A DNA stretch of 64,000 nt from Geobacter sp. AOG2 (GTDB lineage: Bacteria > Desulfobacterota > Desulfuromonadia > Geobacterales > Pseudopelobacteraceae): positions 2,236,158 to 2,300,157 of the forward strand of contig NZ_BLJA01000001.1 of the NCBI RefSeq assembly GCF_019972295.1, in the 5' to 3' direction. The translations under genes were made by a program, and so were the position numbers. The notes below the pieces were generated by a model. The model saw only the letters and a list, made by a program, of their open reading frames with translations. It was not told the origin of the DNA and made no database searches. Every line of letters starts with the position of its first letter. The first letter of the stretch is position 1. Of the stretch, positions 54,742 to 64,000 are shown one piece after another.

Positions 54742-55761
54742 CTACAGCGACCTTCCCGCCGCCTCGGCGAACAACCGCAACCTGTCCATCATCACCTGAA
54801 ATTTGGCCGGTTTCAGCGATTGTGGCCCGTCGCTGGAGGCATGCTCCGGGTCGGGATGGACTTCCACGATCAGGCCATCGGCTCCGCACGCCACCGCGGC
54901 GTAGCACATGGGGGCGACATAGTGATGATTGCCGGTACCGTGGGAGGGATCTACCACCACCGGCAGATGGGTCTTTTCCTTGAGCACCGGCACGGCCGAC
55001 AGGTCAAGGGTATTGCGGGTGGCAGTCTCGAAGGTGCGGATGCCACGCTCGCAGAGGATCACCGACTGGTTACCCTCGCTCATGACATACTCGGCGCTCA
55101 TGAGGAACTCCTGGATCGTCATTGACATCCCGCGTTTCAGCAGGACCGGCCTGCCGAGCTGGCCGACCTTTTTCAGAAGGGCAAAATTCTGGGAATTTCG
55201 GGCACCTATTTGGAGGATGTCCGAGTACTCCGCCACCAGTTCGGCGGTTTCAGGGTTGATCACCTCGGTGACGAACGGCAATCCGGTCAGTGCCCGGGCC
55301 TTGGCCAACAACTTGAGCCCTTCCTCCTCCAACCCCTGGAACGAATAAGGCGACGTGCGCGGCTTGAAGGCTCCACCCCGCAGAATGTGGGCTCCCGCCC
55401 TCTTTACCGCCTCAGCCGTTTCAACGATCTGCTTTTCGTTTTCTACAGAACAGGGACCGGCCATCATAATCACCCGCCCCCCACCGATTGCCACCTCGTC
55501 GTTGATGCGCACGACACTCGACTCCTTTTTGACCTCCTTGGAGGCCAGTTTGTAAGGTTGCAGGATAGGCACAACGTTTTCAACGCCGTGCAGCGATTCG
55601 AGGGATTGCAGCACCGCCTTGCCGCGCTCGTCCCCCACCGCGCCGATGACATCCCTGGTCGAGCCGTGGATCACATGGGGTTTGTAGCCCAATTCCTTGA
55701 TGCGCTTCAACACCTCGTCCTTGTCCTTCTTTACTGCGCCTGCTTTCATTACAATGATCAT
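54742..55761 (-). CDS. aroF: 3-deoxy-7-phosphoheptulonate synthase (DAHP synthase, type I beta)
   Basis: A 339-residue enzyme that joins PEP and erythrose 4-phosphate as the first shikimate-pathway step. The N-terminal ~70 residues are the FL/ACT-like regulatory domain ([20 protein letters not shown]). The barrel has [34 protein letters not shown] and [12 protein letters not shown]. The ATG at 55761 is preferred (AGGAACAGGGG upstream), as an in-frame start 8 codons earlier lies inside the hairpin region. The leader at 55787-55983 codes for a Phe/Tyr-rich peptide and terminator-like hairpins, so attenuation is likely. Confidence 0.95.
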
Positions 55762-55786
55762 CCCCTGTTCCTTTCCCACAAGCAAA

Positions 55787-55896: not shown

Positions 55897-55983
55897 TTAC
55901 ACCTTTGCCTGGGCAGACGGCCTGAAATAAAAGCCGTACCAAAAGAAAAAGTAAAAAGCGCTAAAGAAACGATTCAAATTCAT
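55897..55983 (-). CDS. Phe/Tyr-rich leader peptide of aroF
   Basis: A 28-codon frame with eight Phe, three Tyr and one Trp, clustered in FFSAFYFFFWYGFYF (residues 6-20). It ends in TAA 30 bases before the terminator hairpin of aroF. This is the layout of an amino acid attenuator such as pheL: ribosome stalling at Phe/Tyr codons would affect which hairpin forms. The ATG at 55983 has no clear ribosome site; an in-frame ATG three codons earlier is possible. Confidence 0.8.
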   Translation of the reverse strand: MNLNRFFSAFYFFFWYGFYFRPSAQAKV

Positions 55984-56016
55984 GATCGGCATCAAATCAT
56001 AGCCGCACAGGGTTTG

Positions 56017-56508: not shown

Positions 56509-57069
56509 GAAAAGCCTCCAAAATGTGCTGGATTACACCGGGCGGTGCTGAAACAATCCTCACACCCGCCTCCCGGCGCAGACCACCGGTCATACAATCA
56601 ACTTCCATGCCCATAGCCCAGCATGCCGTTCAAAGCATTCTCGATAGTTTCGGGAGGCCATCTGTGGAGCAACAGTGGACTACCTGACCGCATTCCGTGC
56701 ATCGGCGGCCAACAATGGTAAATATCAGGGAATTGCAACGGGCTGGACAATTCAGGCTGCTTTGCGTTGGCTGGATCGAAATCACAACGGCCGGCAGGGG
56801 GGTGACAATAAAAATTGCTCGACATTGGGCTTACCCAAAATTCCAGTTGGACATATATTGTGAACGGCGAATTTTGTGATAACCAAGGAGAGACATGAAA
56901 ATGTTAATTTTTTTAACACAAGAACAAAATTACGTTACAACTAATTGAATTTAAATTATAAAAATACAAACCTGAAAAGTGTTAATTTTTTTAACACTAT
57001 AACAACAAATTGATTAATTTCATAGTGTTATACCACTTAAGCAGAGTGTTAATAAAATTAACACCTGCT
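56509..57069. other. Gene-free region, partly AT-rich
   Basis: No convincing gene. 56509-56880 has average base composition and only poor frames. 56895-57065 is AT-rich and holds the three palindromes of cluster B. A good ribosome site (AAGGAG) and ATG at 56895 open a frame of only 17 codons, which runs into the first palindrome. This looks like the start of a lost gene, or a chance match. Confidence 0.5.
56901..57064. promoter_or_regulatory. Cluster of three 19-bp palindromic sites (cluster B)
   Basis: ATGTTAATTTTTTTAACAC (56901-56919), GTGTTAATTTTTTTAACAC (56979-56997) and GTGTTAATAAAATTAACAC (57046-57064). The second and third are perfect in both 7-base arms. Centres are 78 and 67 bases apart. 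They match the three sites of cluster A at 737-877. The last ends 5 bases before the end of the maturase gene (57070). No gene starts nearby, so a simple promoter operator role is not obvious. Confidence 0.65.
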
Positions 57070-58365
57070 TTATGCCGCCGACTTTCCCATGGCCAAATCC
57101 TGACGAACGAGTTGCTCCAAGGCTTCGTCCAGGTAAGCGCGGCGACAGTCAACCCCTTCCATAGCCCCGGTTTTCAACAAACGGAAAAAGCGGCAACCGC
57201 CGAAACAGAGCGGCAAGTAGGCGCATTCAAGGCATTCGTCGTTTTTCCAGAGATCCAGATTATGGGACGCGGCGTAATCCCCCACCCCGTCGGCTAGGGA
57301 GCCGACCCGCAACTCTTCACGCCCCATGAAAGCGGGGCATTTGTACAGCGAACCGTCGTAACCCACCACCAGGTCGTGCTCGAACTCGATCATGCAGGCG
57401 GCCGACCGGAGTTTTGGGACCGGAAAGCCCCGCGTGATGGCCTCTTGTCGCAGGAACAGACTGGCCTCGATCACCCATGGTTCATCGGTTGAGGCGCAGG
57501 CGGAATTCAGGTCGCTCGACACGCTGCCGTCAGCTTTGGGCATGACCGGCGCAAACCCTATTGCTTTCAGTGCCGCCGGGGAGATCCCCTCGGCTACCAG
57601 ATAATCCAGCATCTCCGGGAAACGTCGAAAATTATCTCTGGTATAGTTCCCCCCCAAGTCCACCGGCACCAAGTCATGGACCGCCTTGACATTGGCAACG
57701 ATGGTGTCGAAGCTCCCCTTGCCGGAGACAAAGGGGCGCTGTTGGTCATGGATGTCCTTGGGGCCGTCCAGAGTCGCTCTGACGGCGGCCAGTCCTAATG
57801 GTAGAAGGTCCTGAACAACCTGTCGGGTCAAAAGAGTGGCATTTGTGATGATGTTGAACGTAAAGGTGACCCCCAACTCCCGGGCCGCCTCGACAAGATG
57901 GCCGGCGATACGCTTCAAAAGCGGCAAAGCCATCAGAGCCTCGCCCCCGTAAAAATCCACGGTAACATTCCGACCTATGGCCATCTGTTCTTTGAGGCGT
58001 AGTATCAGCAATTCGGCAGTGTGGTCGTCCATCACGAACCGTCCCCGGAAGGGGTCTTCGAAGCAATAACCGCAAGCCAGGTTGCATTCCAGGGTCAGGG
58101 TGACCAAGGCAGCAAAGCGACGGCTTGTGCTGCCGATGGTCTCGAATGTTGCCCGTACCTCCTCCCGCTCCAGAGCCCGGTCCGGCACCAACACCCCCAG
58201 GCGCACCAGAGTGTCGCGCTCCTTCTCCGTCAATCCGTTCGTACGGGCTCTCTCCAAGAGCCCCTCGGACAGCTCCAGCACTGCACAGCGCCGGGTAGCC
58301 ACGGCCAGGACCCGGCCCTGCTTGTCGAGACAGGGATAGATCTTCAGGTAGCTCGTCAATTCCAT
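57070..58365 (-). CDS. Radical-SAM/SPASM peptide maturase, geopeptide type
   Basis: A 431-residue enzyme. The SAM cluster cysteines are C94, C98 and C101 in CNLACGYCFEDPF. The C-terminal SPASM region has at least seven cysteines (CMIEFEHD, KCPAF, CLECAYLPLCFGGC, DCRR) for auxiliary iron-sulfur clusters. The first ~80 residues (MELTSYLKIYPCLDKQGRV) probably recognise the peptide. Such enzymes modify short ribosomal peptides, here most likely the 33-residue peptide encoded 58 bases upstream. I recognise it as like the geopeptide maturases of Geobacter from memory only. A ribosome site GGAGG lies 11 bases before the ATG. Confidence 0.85.
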   Translation of the reverse strand: MELTSYLKIYPCLDKQGRVLAVATRRCAVLELSEGLLERARTNGLTEKERDTLVRLGVLVPDRALEREEVRATFETIGSTSRRFAALVTLTLECNLACGYCFEDPFRGRFVMDDHTAELLILRLKEQMAIGRNVTVDFYGGEALMALPLLKRIAGHLVEAARELGVTFTFNIITNATLLTRQVVQDLLPLGLAAVRATLDGPKDIHDQQRPFVSGKGSFDTIVANVKAVHDLVPVDLGGNYTRDNFRRFPEMLDYLVAEGISPAALKAIGFAPVMPKADGSVSSDLNSACASTDEPWVIEASLFLRQEAITRGFPVPKLRSAACMIEFEHDLVVGYDGSLYKCPAFMGREELRVGSLADGVGDYAASHNLDLWKNDECLECAYLPLCFGGCRFFRLLKTGAMEGVDCRRAYLDEALEQLVRQDLAMGKSAA

Positions 58366-58392
58366 CAGTCGGTTCCCTCCGCGAAAACCTGC

Positions 58393-58412
58393 GGGGAGGG
58401 TCGCCCCTCCCC
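58393..58412 (-). promoter_or_regulatory. Hairpin between the peptide and maturase genes
   Basis: GGGGAGGG (58393-58400), a 4-base loop, and CCCTCCCC (58405-58412) form a perfect 8-bp GC stem. It has no T run on the minus strand. It may act as a leaky terminator or RNA stabiliser giving more peptide than enzyme, which is the usual need in such systems. Confidence 0.6.
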
Positions 58413-58423
58413 CAAGGAAACAT

Positions 58424-58525
58424 CTAGTTCAGCTTTGCCATGCTACCAGTTGCACAACAAGCGTTTACGACACCTGCAACGTGTCCTTCCTCCAACACCA
58501 CCAACTCCTCATTGACTTCACGCAT
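58424..58525 (-). CDS. Small precursor peptide (geopeptide-type RiPP)
   Basis: A 33-residue peptide. It begins MREVNEELVVLEEG, a charged leader-like part, and ends in VVNACCATGSMAKLN with two adjacent cysteines, which are the likely modification site. An excellent ribosome site (GAGGTGAGG) lies 4-8 bases before the ATG. The maturase gene is 58 bases downstream on the same strand. It is far too short for standard gene finders. The thioether or other bond is not known. Confidence 0.8.
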   Translation of the reverse strand: MREVNEELVVLEEGHVAGVVNACCATGSMAKLN

Positions 58526-58674: not shown

Positions 58675-60606
58675 ATGAACAACTGTCAGGATACCAATAG
58701 GGTTCCCTACCTGCTGGACATTCGGTCGTTATTTCTGCTACTATCCCGCGCACGGAATCCTATCATGCCGCTCATCAAACCTCAACATACCATCAGCACC
58801 TTTTTAGTGGCCCTTTGCCTGGCTCTCGGCATCCTCGCCTGTCCGGCATGGGGGGAAGAGGCCGACGAGACTCTGGGGCTCTTCAGCGCCTGGCAGGAGG
58901 AGGCATCCACCGCCTCCCGCGCCCCCAAGCCGCTCTCCCAGACCGCCGAAAACGTCACCGTGGTCACGGCCCCGGAGATCGAGGCCATAAACGCCCACAC
59001 CCTGGCCGACGTGCTGGACACCATCCCCGGCATCCAGATCCAGCACAACGGTGGTCCGGGAATCACGGCCTACACATTCATCCAAAGCACCGACTTCATC
59101 CATACCCAGGTGTATGTGGACGGGGTTTCAATCACCAACGTTTCCAGCGGTTTTTCCGATGTATCACTGATCCCGGCCAACATCATCGAGCGGGTCGAGA
59201 TCGTCAAGGGGGCCGCCTCCTCGGCCTGGGGCCAGGCCTTGGGTGGAGTGATCAACGTCATCACCAAATCTCCCGAACGGGGCCGGACCATCAGCGGCAC
59301 GGCTACCGCCTCCATCGGCGAGCGGACCACGACCGATGACAGTCTGGAACTGAGCGGCGCCAGGGGCAGGCTCGGGTACTACCTGTCCGGCAGCCTTCTG
59401 GACTCCAAAGGCGTGCTCCCCAATACCCGGATCGATTCCAACCGCGCCTATGCCAAGTTGGCCTACGACCTCCCCAATCACGGACAACTCTGGGGCACCT
59501 ATTTCTACACCCATGCCGACATGGGGGATCTGCACGCCCCCGCCCCCGCCTATGACCTGGATGAAAAACCGGACAAACTTTTCATGCTGGGCTCGCTCGG
59601 AGTGCGCTACCCCCTGGGGGACCGGCTGGAGTTGGAGGTGAGCGGCCACCACTCCTTTAACAGAACCAACAACTCCTACTTTAACATCAGCGATGGCGCC
59701 ATCTGGTCCTGGCAAACAAGCTTGCCGACGTCAATCGTAAAGGAGCAGGTAAGCGGCGCCAGCGCCAAGCTGGTCTGGCGAGGGGAAAACAACCTGCTGG
59801 TGGCCGGTAGCGATTACAACCATCTTGAACTGTTCAACAACTCATCCGACGGCAGCACCGTTAGCCCTTTTACCAGACGGGTTGACCGCTGGGGCATCTA
59901 CCTGAACGATACCGTCACTGTTGGCCCCGTAAGCGTGACTCCCGGCGTCCGTTTTGATCACACCCAGACCGCCGGCGACCAATTCAGTCCCTCCATCGGT
60001 GCCACCTGGCAGCTGACAGGCGCTACGCTGTTGCGCGCCTACACGGCCCGCGGCTACGGACTCCCCGTGCTGGGACTGACCGATTCCCCGTCGGTGAAGA
60101 TCTGGACCACCCAGGTCGGGGCCGAGAGTAGCGCAATACCGTACATCTGGGCAAAAGGGACCCTGTTCCGTAACCAAACTTGGGGTAATACCGTTGAACA
60201 GCACATGGCTCTGGGAACGGAGTTGGAAATACGTACCATCCCGGTTTGGAACACCTCGCTGGGAACCGGCTACACCTTTACCGACACCACCCGCACCAGT
60301 GACGGCAATGAAGTCAACAATTACGCCCGCCACACCGTGCAGGTGGCTCTGCGCTACAACGATAAAACCTACCGGGGCGTGCTGACCGGTCGCCATATAT
60401 TCTGGAACTCCGATCCGTCGGAAAACGGCCACTACGGCGGCCTGCTTTGGGACCTGCACCTGGGTGCGACGCTGCTCAAGCGGGAAAACAGCTCGCTTGA
60501 GGTTTTCTTCTCCGCCCATAACCTGTTCAACGGCGCTCAGTACTATTTCGATCAGATACCAAACCCGGGCCGCTGGTTCGAGGGTGGCATGAGGGTGCGC
60601 TTTTGA
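58675..60606 (+). CDS. TonB-dependent outer-membrane receptor
   Basis: A 643-residue receptor. The plug domain has NVTVVTAPEIEAINAHTLADVLDTIPGIQI, VDGVSITN and IERVEIVKGAASSAWGQALGGVINVITK; the barrel follows and ends in F (GGMRVRF). The signal peptide is near TFLVALCLALGILACPAWG. The ATG at 58675 is chosen for AAGGAG 6 bases upstream; starting at 58765 would put the signal peptide at the N-terminus and is also reasonable. It is the first gene of a receptor-binding protein-kinase set. The substrate (siderophore, vitamin B12 or other) cannot be told. Confidence 0.9.
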   Translation: MNNCQDTNRVPYLLDIRSLFLLLSRARNPIMPLIKPQHTISTFLVALCLALGILACPAWGEEADETLGLFSAWQEEASTASRAPKPLSQTAENVTVVTAPEIEAINAHTLADVLDTIPGIQIQHNGGPGITAYTFIQSTDFIHTQVYVDGVSITNVSSGFSDVSLIPANIIERVEIVKGAASSAWGQALGGVINVITKSPERGRTISGTATASIGERTTTDDSLELSGARGRLGYYLSGSLLDSKGVLPNTRIDSNRAYAKLAYDLPNHGQLWGTYFYTHADMGDLHAPAPAYDLDEKPDKLFMLGSLGVRYPLGDRLELEVSGHHSFNRTNNSYFNISDGAIWSWQTSLPTSIVKEQVSGASAKLVWRGENNLLVAGSDYNHLELFNNSSDGSTVSPFTRRVDRWGIYLNDTVTVGPVSVTPGVRFDHTQTAGDQFSPSIGATWQLTGATLLRAYTARGYGLPVLGLTDSPSVKIWTTQVGAESSAIPYIWAKGTLFRNQTWGNTVEQHMALGTELEIRTIPVWNTSLGTGYTFTDTTRTSDGNEVNNYARHTVQVALRYNDKTYRGVLTGRHIFWNSDPSENGHYGGLLWDLHLGATLLKRENSSLEVFFSAHNLFNGAQYYFDQIPNPGRWFEGGMRVRF

Positions 60607-61481
60607 GGATTCTGGCCGCCTTCATATTCTCCTGCGCTCTGCTGTTCCCCCTTGTGGCCGATGCCTACGACGTACTGGTGCTGCAAAGCCGCCGAGATCC
60701 AGCCTTCGACGAGGCCCTCTCCGGATTCCGAACCGGTCGCAATCTTTCGGAACGGCTAATAGTACTTGCCGATTATGTCGACGTGGACATCACCCGGATC
60801 GTTCGAGAAGACCAGCCTGCCCTGGTTCTGGCGCTGGGCGATAAAGCCCTGGAAGCGACCCGCAAACTGCGGCAAACTCCGGTTGTCGCCCTGATCTCTC
60901 TCGGCATCCACAATCGACACACATCTCACTCCAACCTGACCGGCATCGACATGTTTGCAGCGCCGGAACGTTACCTAACCCTGTTCCAGGGGATGAGAAA
61001 ACATCGCATCGGATTGATCTTCCATCCCGCCAAAAGCGGCTGGTACGTGCAGCAGGCACGTCAGATTGCACAACGGATGGGGATAGAATTGGTGCTACGC
61101 GAGGTTTCGGTCCCGCGGGACACCTTGTTCCACCTCTCGTCCCTTGCCGGCAAGGTCGATGCGCTGTGGATGCTTCCCGACTCCACCGCAGTCACGCGCG
61201 AAACGGTTGAGGCCTATTTCCGGTTTTCCCAGGAGCATAACGTGCCGGTGGTGTCCTTTGCCAGTGCCTATCTGGGCCTGGGGGCGGCGGCGGTTCTGGA
61301 GATCGACCGCACCGAACTGGGCAGGCAGGCGGGCGACATGAGCTCGGCTATTCTCAAAGGCGCTGAAGCATCGGACATCCCCCTTGCCTACCCGCACAGG
61401 GTTCTGCTCAAGACCAACCCGAGCGTGCTCAAACATCTGGGAATAACAGCAGAACAAGCTATCATGAATCCACGGGAATGA
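60603..61481 (+). CDS. ABC-type substrate-binding protein (ABC_sub_bind family)
   Basis: A 292-residue periplasmic protein with a signal peptide (AAFIFSCALLFPLVADA). It has the ABC_sub_bind pattern: VLVLQSRRDPAFDEALSGFR, LVLALGDKALEATRKL, TPVVALISLGI, KVDALWMLPDSTAVTRETVE and the C-terminal SYPHRV-like LAYPHRVLLKTNPSVLKHLGI. No permease or ATPase lies next to it. The TTG start overlaps the receptor stop codon. It may present a ligand to the histidine kinase encoded next. Confidence 0.85.
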   Translation: MRILAAFIFSCALLFPLVADAYDVLVLQSRRDPAFDEALSGFRTGRNLSERLIVLADYVDVDITRIVREDQPALVLALGDKALEATRKLRQTPVVALISLGIHNRHTSHSNLTGIDMFAAPERYLTLFQGMRKHRIGLIFHPAKSGWYVQQARQIAQRMGIELVLREVSVPRDTLFHLSSLAGKVDALWMLPDSTAVTRETVEAYFRFSQEHNVPVVSFASAYLGLGAAAVLEIDRTELGRQAGDMSSAILKGAEASDIPLAYPHRVLLKTNPSVLKHLGITAEQAIMNPRE

Positions 61482-63088
61482 TCGTGTCGCCCGCCGCCAG
61501 ATTCAAAAATTTCCGCGCCAGCTTCCAATTCAAGCTTTTTGCTATCTTTACCCTGTTGACCGCCCTCATGTCCGTCCTGTTCGGTTCCGCGTATATTTTT
61601 ACCGAAATTCGCGAACAACGCATCTACGCAGGCAACCGGTGTCAACTGATGGCAACGCATCTGGCCGATGCGATCCGCTTGCCCTTGTTCGCCGAAAACA
61701 GTGACATGCTCCTACAGATCATTCAGGAAACCTCCCATACCTCCGACTTTCACGGCGTGACAATTCGTACCAATGACGGCAGGGTTCTAGCTGAGATACG
61801 CAAGCCCGTTTCCCGCAGCGACTCGGAATTGCTGAGCAAAACCGTGGAGGTGCGCAGTACCCCTCTGGGTTCATCCCCCGAGTCGGCGATCACCGGCAGT
61901 AATGAGCCGGTGGGGGCCTTGATCGGTACCGTGCGCCTCGACCTGGATACGACCGAACTGAGGGCGCGGACCCGACGTCTGATCATGGTGGCATCCGCCA
62001 CAGCTTTCCTCTTCTGGATCACGGTCTCATCCCTCTGCTATCTTGCACTCCGTCAGGTAACCCGTTCCTTCAATGCCCTCATGCGCGGTCTGGAGTCCAT
62101 GCAGGCAGGAAACTACGCCATCAGGATCGCCCCCGTCAGCAACGACGAACCGGGTCGGGCAGCCGTCGCCATCACGCTACTGGCAGCCTCTCTCCGGCAT
62201 CGGGAAGAGGAAAACCATCGGTTGCAACAACAGTTGGTCGACGCCATGCGTCTTGAAGTCCAGAAGGAAAAGAAGCAGATCATGGCAAAGCTGATTCAGA
62301 CCAACCGCATGACCTCCTTGGGACTCCTTGCCTCCAGCATGGCCCATGAAATCAACACGCCCAACGGCGCCATCAAACTTGCAGGACAGCAGGTTGCCAA
62401 AACATGGAAAAGCGCGATCCCCATACTTGAACGGGTTGCGGAGGAGGAAGGGGATTTCGTCCTTGGCGGAGCGGTATTCAGTCTGGTGCGGGATGAGGTG
62501 ACCAAGGCCACGGAGGTCATTGCCCGATGTTCGGAACGGATTGAAAAAGTTGTCCAGGATATGAGGGACTACAACATCGGCGGACGGGGCGATGCCAGAG
62601 ACCGTGTGAACCTCAACCAGGTGGTAATTGACGCACTTACCATTATCCGTGCCCATGGGCGCCACGGCACTATTGCGATTCAGAATGATCCGTATCCCGA
62701 TCTGCCTGCGGTAACCGGCAACCGTTATCAGCTTGAACAGGTGGTTATCAACCTGATTCTGAACAGCATACAGGCCATGCCGGAATTGGGCAGCGGGATC
62801 ATAACGATTGCATCAGGCTATAACAGTGCAGCTGAAGAGGTTTTCCTTACCGTAAAGGATAATGGAAAGGGGATTCAACCGGAGATCATGAGCCGCCTCA
62901 TGGAGCCGTTTTTCTCTACCCGCATGGAAAGCGGCGGCAGCGGCCTTGGTCTGTACATATCAAACTTTATCGTGACCGAACATCACGGCCGACTGATATT
63001 TGAATCGAAGCCCGGCGAAGGTACTACCGTCAGTATAACTATTCCCATTGAACAGGGCACCTGCGACACGCCCGCACACCAGAGCTAG
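61478..63088 (+). CDS. Membrane histidine kinase with HAMP domain
   Basis: A 536-residue sensor kinase. Helices near residues 15-40 and 165-190 flank a periplasmic sensor. Then comes HAMP, a coiled linker (EEENHRLQQQLVDAM), the H-box MAHEINTPNGAIKLAGQQ (histidine with EINTP), the N-box NLILNSIQAMPELG and G boxes DNGKGIQPEI and GGSGLGLYISNF. ATGA overlap with the binding-protein gene. It probably signals to the regulator at 63108, which converges with it 19 bases away. Confidence 0.9.
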   Translation: MIVSPAARFKNFRASFQFKLFAIFTLLTALMSVLFGSAYIFTEIREQRIYAGNRCQLMATHLADAIRLPLFAENSDMLLQIIQETSHTSDFHGVTIRTNDGRVLAEIRKPVSRSDSELLSKTVEVRSTPLGSSPESAITGSNEPVGALIGTVRLDLDTTELRARTRRLIMVASATAFLFWITVSSLCYLALRQVTRSFNALMRGLESMQAGNYAIRIAPVSNDEPGRAAVAITLLAASLRHREEENHRLQQQLVDAMRLEVQKEKKQIMAKLIQTNRMTSLGLLASSMAHEINTPNGAIKLAGQQVAKTWKSAIPILERVAEEEGDFVLGGAVFSLVRDEVTKATEVIARCSERIEKVVQDMRDYNIGGRGDARDRVNLNQVVIDALTIIRAHGRHGTIAIQNDPYPDLPAVTGNRYQLEQVVINLILNSIQAMPELGSGIITIASGYNSAAEEVFLTVKDNGKGIQPEIMSRLMEPFFSTRMESGGSGLGLYISNFIVTEHHGRLIFESKPGEGTTVSITIPIEQGTCDTPAHQS

Positions 63089-63107: not shown

Positions 63108-64000
63108 TCATTTTTCCAGTTCGGTGAGTTTTTTCTGCACCGTCTGTCGGCACACGCCGAGCAGGTCGGCCGCCGGTCCCTTCTTGCCCCCCGTAACCTT
63201 CAAGGCCTCTTCGAACATCAATTTCTCGATTTGCCCCATGGAAGGAAATGAAGGGAAAACCACATGCAGGCTGAACTGGCTGTTTGCAGCCTTGGCCCCT
63301 GCATCGATCATGGTTCTGGCCCTGATCACCATATCCGGGAAATCGCTCTGTACCAAGAGCCCGGTTTTATTGACCACAACGGCGCTGCTGACCTTATTGA
63401 TGAGTTCGCGGACGTTACCGGGATAATCATAGTCTTCCAGCAGCCAGCGTAATTCGGTCGCGATCCTGGGCGGTTTTTTCCCCACGCTCTTCGCCGCCGC
63501 GTTGATATAATGGTTAACCAGCGGCAAAATATCCTCCCGCCGCTCCCGCAAGGGAGGTATATGCAGCCTGTGGTAACAAATCCGGTGATAGAGGTCTTCC
63601 CGAAACTGATTCTCGGCAACCAGCTTTTTGAAGTCCCGATTGGATGCCACGATGACCCGTGCGTCACTTTTCAGTAAAACATCCGAACCCAACCGATAAT
63701 ATTCGTTTTCCTGCAGGAGCCGCAGCAACTTTATCTGGGATTCAGGTGACAGATCTCCAATCTCGTCCAGGAATAGCGTTCCTCCCTGGGCCTTGGCAAT
63801 CAACCCCTGCCGCAGCTCGCTCGCTCCGGTGAAAGAACCTTTTTTATGGCCGAAGAGTGTATCCTCAAACATATGCGCATCGAGCCCCGCAACATTCAGG
63901 GGGATAAAATTGCCCTGCAGGCCGCTGGCTTTGTGGATGGCGCGGGCGATCAACTCTTTGCCGACTCCGGTTTCGCCGGTGATCAGGACCGGGTAACGGG
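63108..64000 (-). CDS. Sigma-54-dependent regulator, 5' end outside the window
   Basis: The visible C-terminal ~297 residues begin in the AAA+ domain. Walker A (ITGETGVGKE) is at about 63965. The GAFTGA loop is here GSFTGA (HKKGSFTGASELRQG), Walker B is GGTLFLDEIGDLSPES, and the arginine finger region is FREDLYHRI. The Fis-type HTH is KGPAADLLGVCRQTVQKKLTEL. The GSFTGA variant is seen in other active members. It continues upstream beyond position 64000, where a receiver domain would be expected. It converges with the kinase gene. Confidence 0.93.
   Translation of the reverse strand, partial: RYPVLITGETGVGKELIARAIHKASGLQGNFIPLNVAGLDAHMFEDTLFGHKKGSFTGASELRQGLIAKAQGGTLFLDEIGDLSPESQIKLLRLLQENEYYRLGSDVLLKSDARVIVASNRDFKKLVAENQFREDLYHRICYHRLHIPPLRERREDILPLVNHYINAAAKSVGKKPPRIATELRWLLEDYDYPGNVRELINKVSSAVVVNKTGLLVQSDFPDMVIRARTMIDAGAKAANSQFSLHVVFPSFPSMGQIEKLMFEEALKVTGGKKGPAADLLGVCRQTVQKKLTELEK

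Follow-up and report, generated by a model that had tools for sequence, protein, structure and literature searches.

Gram-positive bacteria are well known to signal with modified peptides; little is known of such signalling behind an outer membrane. In 2020, Chen et al. reportedly linked SCIFF-derived thioether RiPPs (ribosomally made, post-translationally modified peptides) to quorum sensing in Clostridia; we know of no TonB-dependent receptor (TBDR) or periplasmic substrate-binding protein (SBP) in that signalling, nor, to our knowledge, is a route from a TonB-dependent receptor through a periplasmic binding protein to a histidine kinase known for any RiPP. NCBIfam pairs the radical-SAM enzymes of TIGR04280 with short peptides named 'geopeptides'. 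The ranthipeptide enzyme CteB carries an RRE and belongs to a family that makes thioethers, according to an excerpt of the source (PMC8326336). Methanobactin, as an excerpt of another source describes, is re-imported by MbnT and bound in the periplasm by MbnE, which is related to OppA and AppA (PMC7558416), and it is the nearest working parallel to the system described below.

Within the window, the whole 64,000-nucleotide stretch of Geobacter sp. AOG2 DNA that was analysed, a preliminary description had placed a 33-codon gene for a peptide with adjacent cysteines next to a gene for a radical-SAM/SPASM enzyme, and both were located as claimed (Table 1). Its proposal that these are a RiPP precursor and the corresponding maturase is now strongly supported by the TIGR04280 match of the enzyme (643 bits), by its invariant cysteines and by a peptide profile. 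The two almost certainly form a pair, and the pair is a divergent geopeptide system, of a family already named in NCBIfam, so that its kind is a known one. Like the geopeptide system (TIGR04280/TIGR04229), the locus encodes a maturase that scores over the family cut-off and a short CC precursor just upstream; unlike it, the precursor is missed by TIGR04229. The NCBIfam description lines consulted name no receptor, SBP or kinase partner.

Table 1. Coordinates of the genes at the locus and of MFS genes found at four distant loci (positions without a locus handle are those of the window).
Feature	Position	Strand	Remarks
Geopeptide-like RiPP precursor gene	58424-58525	-	33 codons from ATG; 36 from upstream GTG
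Radical-SAM/SPASM peptide maturase (TIGR04280)	57070-58365	-	431 aa; putative RRE-like N-terminal domain
TonB-dependent outer-membrane receptor (TBDR)	58765-60606	+	Plug PF07715, 74.8 bits; divergent from peptide gene
Periplasmic substrate-binding protein (SBP)	60603-61481	+	PF04392, TrpX/CD0873-like
Histidine kinase	61478-63088	+	HATPase_c 88.5 bits; HisKA 20.3 bits, under its 26.9 cut-off
NtrC-type sigma-54 response regulator	63108-64000, past window end	-	477 aa; whole in L113:11108-12541
MFS gene	L090:11296-11859		23 bp from maturase
MFS gene	L251:7199-7759		101 bp from maturase
MFS gene	L255:7015-8352	-	24 bp from maturase
MFS gene	L110:9164-9763		Between receptor and peptide

The peptide gene lies upstream of the maturase gene and is separated from it by 58 bp. 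On the other side, the receptor and SBP genes overlap by 4 bp, with the receptor stop over the SBP start as read in the letters, and the SBP and kinase genes likewise overlap by 4 bp (ORF coordinates and letters). The response-regulator gene is convergent with that of the kinase, and the two proteins presumably work as a pair. The top PDB matches of the receptor, which cover its plug, were BtuB and the colicin I receptor, and it scored 854 bits against a profile of its own family in which the window sequence itself is included. For the SBP, the best PDB matches were CD0873 and proteins of the TrpX type.

The maturase scored 643.3 bits against TIGR04280 (cut-off 400), covering positions 1-426 of the 428 in the model, and is present as a single copy in the window's genome. 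Its top named relative in the scan was the maturase of Oryzomonas japonica (82% identity), and enzymes over the cut-off were found in 45 of 57 genomes (the window's own and 56 relatives) and in 31 of the 395 genomes of a phylum-wide draw. The cysteines pointed out in the preliminary description (C94, C98 and C101, plus at least seven towards the C-terminus) are invariant in the sequences of 29 relatives, the first three making up the CX3CX2C radical-SAM motif and the others being C290, C324, C343, C378, C381, C387, C391 and C407. The spacing from C324 to C407 (C324-x13-G-x4-C343 ... C378-x2-C381-x5-C387-x3-C391 ... C407) is that of the SPASM motif. When a predicted model of the maturase (pLDDT 84) was compared with known structures, CteB was the best Foldseek match and aligned over residues 4-427 with the RRE-like part included (Z 22.9), as did TigE over residues 1-427 (Z 21.2); anSME (Z 24.1) and ChlB (Z 23.6) scored slightly above CteB, but only from about residue 80 onward. 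The N-terminal elements of the model (E7-11, E18-23, E28-33, H34-42, H47-55 and H63-71), three strands and three helices that align with CteB, are those of a predicted RRE-like domain. Unlike the SCIFF/ranthipeptide enzymes (CteB, PapB) that it resembles in this alignment, the window maturase fell far under the SCIFF and PapB cut-offs (96.9 of 425 bits for TIGR03974 and 118.7 of 340 for NF047865); the SCIFF precursor has six cysteines compared with two in the window precursor, and the window system has a receptor set.

The precursor itself (MREVNEELVVLEEGHVAGVVNACCATGSMAKLN) is preceded, 5' of its ATG, by AGAGAGGTGAGG, and comprises a leader (MREVNEELVVLEEG), a linker (HVAGVVNA), the two cysteines and a tail (ATGSMAKLN). 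Against a wider peptide profile, made from 53 peptides encoded upstream of TIGR04280 enzymes, it scored 39.8 bits (E 2e-11) with its genus left out, the runner-up among 1724 window segments reaching 6.7 bits, and it still scored 33.1 bits when a wider group was removed from the profile seed. Genome-wide, it was the sole strong match to a 12-row model that included the window peptide (52.8 bits, with the next at 14.2). Comparison with two relatives of the same genus gave 9 synonymous and 5-6 non-synonymous codon differences; the precursor ORF is not due to chance. The geopeptide model TIGR04229 (30-bit cut-off) gave no match to the window precursor, whether as the 33-aa form at E up to 1 or as the 36-aa form at E up to 10, and its cut-off was reached by 5 of the 17 relatives' peptides that were tried, all encoded upstream of TIGR04280 enzymes. 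The window precursor is thus not filed under TIGR04229, its homology being drawn from the wider profile.

The CC peptide family was also sought in relatives, where the frame was conserved and 119 distinct peptides were obtained, all on a constant plan in which a leader ending in V/I-L-D/E-x-G is followed by a linker, two cysteines and a tail. The cysteines were adjacent in 116 of the 119 and arranged as CxC in three (CTC in L033 and L177, CIC in L115), in a collection selected by a profile that itself favours CC. The tails ranged from Ser/Thr/Arg-rich to strongly hydrophobic, with 6-13 residues after the two cysteines and 7-10 in 108 of the 116 CC peptides. The peptide was found at 70 of the 80 named-genome loci surveyed (the best 80 of 522); among the ten others, four were cut within 189 bp and the real misses were L079, L082, L097 and L105. 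Two Nitrospirota maturase loci, L108 and L109, were under the peptide threshold, yet hold an unusual Lys-rich CC frame. A sigma-54 promoter score of at least 10 was obtained upstream of 10 of 70 peptides, compared with 6 expected, a slight excess at most, one of the ten (L100) coming from a mis-cut region. A single maturase was occasionally accompanied by two peptides, one on each side of it at L092, in tandem at L265 and about 2 kb from each other at L066. Beside the CxC peptide of L115, a receptor was present and no maturase was nearby.

As the preliminary description had noted, neither an exporter nor a protease gene is adjacent, and it had been suggested from this that the peptide may stay in the cell. 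That implication is not borne out, as a TBDR and an SBP do adjoin the pair. The idea of a retained peptide is not supported, given that the neighbours conserved best are the outer-membrane receptor, the SBP and two-component proteins and that MFS efflux-type genes occur in four distant loci. In a survey of 80 named-genome loci (the best 80 of 522, 74 of them with the maturase called as an ORF), the most frequent neighbour clusters were the TBDR (62 loci), the PF04392 SBP (52) and two-component proteins (49), and the next, an ABC ATPase, was found at 8 loci and at a median distance of about 7 kb. Six-frame profile searches within 7 kb raised these counts to 68 of the best 80 of 522 loci for the receptor and 63 for the SBP, and where at least 6.5 kb was available on each side (38 loci among the same best 80 of 522), receptor, SBP and peptide were each present at 37. 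As only three TBDR plugs and three PF04392 proteins are encoded in the window's genome, one of each at this locus, the adjacency of receptor and SBP is not explained by abundance. Gene order varied: the receptor gene was divergent in most Geobacterales loci, three Nitrospirota loci (L103, L104 and L107) had receptor, maturase, SBP and kinase genes in that order and in one direction, and in a tandem subgroup the maturase gene was flanked by two SBP genes.

The association was also seen in a test set of 26 maturase loci from 13 families outside the window's order, taken from the phylum-wide draw, of which 25 were new and one (L244) was a duplicate of L077, with an identical peptide and a contig of equal length (9761). 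A receptor was found at 23 of the 26, within 0.8 kb at 21 and at 1.9 and 2.3 kb at two, and the three misses had merely 0.8-1.8 kb of contig upstream. An SBP was found at 21 of the 26 and a peptide above 11 bits also at 21, while CC peptides were readable at L250 and L267 but scored 8.0 and 7.7 bits. Among 67 maturase matches, eight had no receptor within 8 kb, several of them on cut contigs; the regions of L082 and L219 were long enough for these to be real exceptions. The kinase is frequent, yet linked less strictly than receptor and SBP: by motif it was found at 26 of 35 loci (22 upstream compared with 5 downstream), and it lay directly behind the SBP gene in 21 of 63. The two-component neighbour cluster joins kinases, hybrid kinases and response regulators, so its 33 of 38 loci is not a count of kinases; the window's response regulator scored 316 bits with this cluster, and HATPase_c was present in all 10 of the two-component neighbours chosen for scanning.

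Covariation was used to ask which parts of the peptide follow which partner, the distances of leader, linker and tail being compared with those of maturase, TBDR and SBP, with recA as the species control. From 61 regions, 54 modules with maturase, peptide and receptor were obtained, and six were dropped for having no SBP or recA or for being short, leaving a main set of 48 modules from 38 genomes. With simple alignment distances and Mantel-type tests, which can be too liberal for related sequences, the leader followed the maturase when TBDR, SBP and recA were given (partial r 0.42, p 0.001; 48 modules), as expected if the maturase reads the leader. The tie of the leader to the receptor was weak (r 0.17, p 0.01) and was lost within maturase clades (p 0.76 for the receptor, 0.87 for the SBP). 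The linker followed the maturase (r 0.39) and was weakly tied to the receptor (r 0.18, p 0.003) and the SBP (r 0.15). Given maturase and recA, the tail followed the TBDR (r 0.32, p 0.001) and the SBP (r 0.29, p 0.002), and both ties persisted within maturase clades (p 0.002 and p 0.012, respectively); the former is as expected if the receptor reads the tail. A tie of tail to maturase was also present (r 0.26), and recA contributed nothing to the tail (r 0.01). After removal of six divergent modules of tandem architecture, the tail still followed the TBDR (0.195, p 0.001) and no longer significantly the SBP (r 0.09, p 0.13). A first set of 56 named-genome modules, analysed with no species control and sharing many genomes with the recA set, so that the two are not independent, gave 0.26 each for tail with TBDR and tail with SBP given the maturase (p 0.002, also within clades). 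In that set, the leader followed the maturase given the SBP (0.43) and not significantly given the TBDR (p 0.12), and the tie between leader and receptor was significant within maturase clades (p 0.014). Tail hydrophobicity was tried as the covarying property and rejected: it was significant overall, with p 0.66 (SBP) and 0.94 (TBDR) within maturase clades.

What was observed is the pairing of the two genes, the conservation of the receptor set and two covariations, leader with maturase and tail with receptor; the chemistry, the export, the identity of the ligand and its contact with the receptor, and the direction of signalling are inferred. The chances appear even that the locus encodes a RiPP together with a receptor for it, and that the product is exported, re-enters through that receptor, is captured by the SBP and is reported by the kinase. 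The TIGR04280 maturase would bind the leader, through the ...ELVVLEEG stretch, with its RRE-like N-terminal domain, and the two-cysteine core would then be modified, most likely with a thioether or other cross-link on one or both cysteines; judged only by fold and family neighbourhood, a cysteine-based cross-link has about as much speaking for it as against it. The product would be trimmed and then exported by proteins encoded elsewhere. Outside the cell it would be recognised by the adjacent TonB-dependent receptor and pulled into the periplasm, where the ABC_sub_bind protein would capture it and the histidine kinase, once informed, would act through the sigma-54 response regulator. That the receptor set acts on the peptide product is probable and, if it does, signalling is likewise favoured over feeding, because the SBP has no adjacent permease or ATPase and its gene overlaps that of the kinase. 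Like the thioether RiPPs of Clostridia, the product would be a radical-SAM peptide proposed as a signal, but in a different phylum and cell envelope. More tentatively, and with somewhat more against than for it, geopeptides as a whole may be radical-SAM-modified pheromones of diderms (Geobacterales, other families of the same phylum and Nitrospirota) that act from TBDR through SBP to kinase, with tails that diversify together with their own receptors and with receiver-only strains. Literature searches found no paper that uses 'geopeptide' or 'TIGR04280' and none on the system by title or start of abstract; as far as these searches go, the five-gene unit and the covariation of tail and receptor are new. 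Because peptide, maturase, receptor, SBP and kinase are encoded in one compact unit, the role of geopeptides can be tested directly, and the division between a leader that tracks the maturase and a tail that tracks the receptor too shows which residues to mutate first. The hosts are metal-reducing bacteria of wide interest for their social behaviour and electron transfer.

The same genes could serve a metal-binding carrier similar to methanobactin, which would be secreted, would bind metal through the two thiols or derivatives of them and would come back through the receptor to be held by the SBP, the kinase regulating this uptake. Methanobactin too is a RiPP that is re-imported by a TonB-dependent receptor and has a periplasmic binding protein, and the receptor and SBP found here parallel the MbnT and MbnE of the excerpt (PMC7558416), but the SBP is of the TrpX/CD0873 class and not OppA-like, as that source describes MbnE to be. 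The window system further differs from methanobactin in its radical-SAM maturase, the overlap of SBP and kinase genes and the lack of any sign of metal handling at the locus. In favour of a carrier, each of the 119 distinct peptides has two cysteines, as CC or CxC (they were selected by the profile that favours CC), and the plug of the receptor is nearest to BtuB and siderophore receptors. Against it, the tails after the cysteines differ widely, some being rich in Ser/Thr/Arg and others strongly hydrophobic, unlike what a fixed metal site would show, and the module has no recurrent gene for a permease, an ATPase or metal handling, the ABC ATPase cluster being confined to 8 loci at a median of about 7 kb. 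A carrier function is considered unlikely. It would be more surprising still if the peptide served only as a scaffold for a small cofactor or metabolite, excised from it as PQQ is from PqqA and then retrieved by the receptor. The short precursor, the single maturase and an SBP fold of the small-ligand (aromatic amino acid) class would suit such a product, yet the neighbour clusters hold no recurrent enzyme for additional processing, and since the length of the tail is kept (7-10 residues in 108 of 116 CC peptides) and the tail covaries with the receptor, the tail itself seems to be recognised. A scaffold is considered very improbable.

It was also considered that receptor, SBP and kinase might respond to an unrelated ligand from outside and turn on a peptide that works within the cell, the linkage being regulatory. 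Receptor sets do exist apart from the maturase: among 83 receptor hits (at least 359 bits, 57 genomes; the fragment in G054 was left out of the distance count), 21 had no maturase within 8 kb, some at contig ends and others whole, and because of such sets the receptor may have another ligand. At locus L114 of genome G004, which belongs to the window's genus, the peptide leader has become fused to the last maturase codons through a deletion, with the receptor, SBP and kinase genes retained and the aroF neighbour 93% identical. G004 is a candidate for a natural receiver-only strain, in a draft genome where a misassembly is possible, and this deletion with retention of the other genes would suit a regulatory linkage, as would the lack of an exporter gene at the window locus. 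However, the tail covaries with the receptor even when maturase and species are controlled for, and MFS efflux-type genes occur in four distant modules, both of which argue against a peptide confined to the cell and render a purely regulatory linkage rather doubtful.

Against the preferred reading, that of an exported RiPP with its own receptor, no exporter or leader peptidase gene was seen in the window or as a recurring member of the neighbour clusters. Also against it stand the receptor sets that lack a maturase, the maturases that lack a receptor, the weakening of the tie between tail and SBP once the tandem modules are removed, the ties of tail to maturase and of leader and linker to receptor, and the looser linkage of the kinase. 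The MFS efflux-type genes of the four distant modules (L090, L110, L251 and L255) were picked by eye, from the downstream genes at 40 distant loci and one neighbour cluster, and then scanned. Only that of L255 is full-length, and its matches include, under the cut-off, the enterobactin exporter EntS; the other three are half-length (187-200 aa). At L109, a MacB/FtsX-type permease, an ABC ATPase and a thioredoxin-like protein are instead encoded upstream of the receptor.

Two further observations were made in the region downstream of the maturase gene. Three AT-rich inverted repeats of the form (G)TGTTAAT...ATTAACA(C) were spotted by eye at 56898-57068, the last of them directly behind the maturase stop, and could possibly be terminators or regulator sites. 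A short ORF at 55897-55995 (- strand), ending in ...MNLNRFFSAFYFFFWYGFYFRPSAQAKV and highly rich in Phe and Tyr, lies upstream of a DAHP synthase gene (54742-55785, - strand) and looks like an attenuation leader peptide for this gene of the aromatic pathway; the same peptide, with one change, is also readable in the letters of L114.
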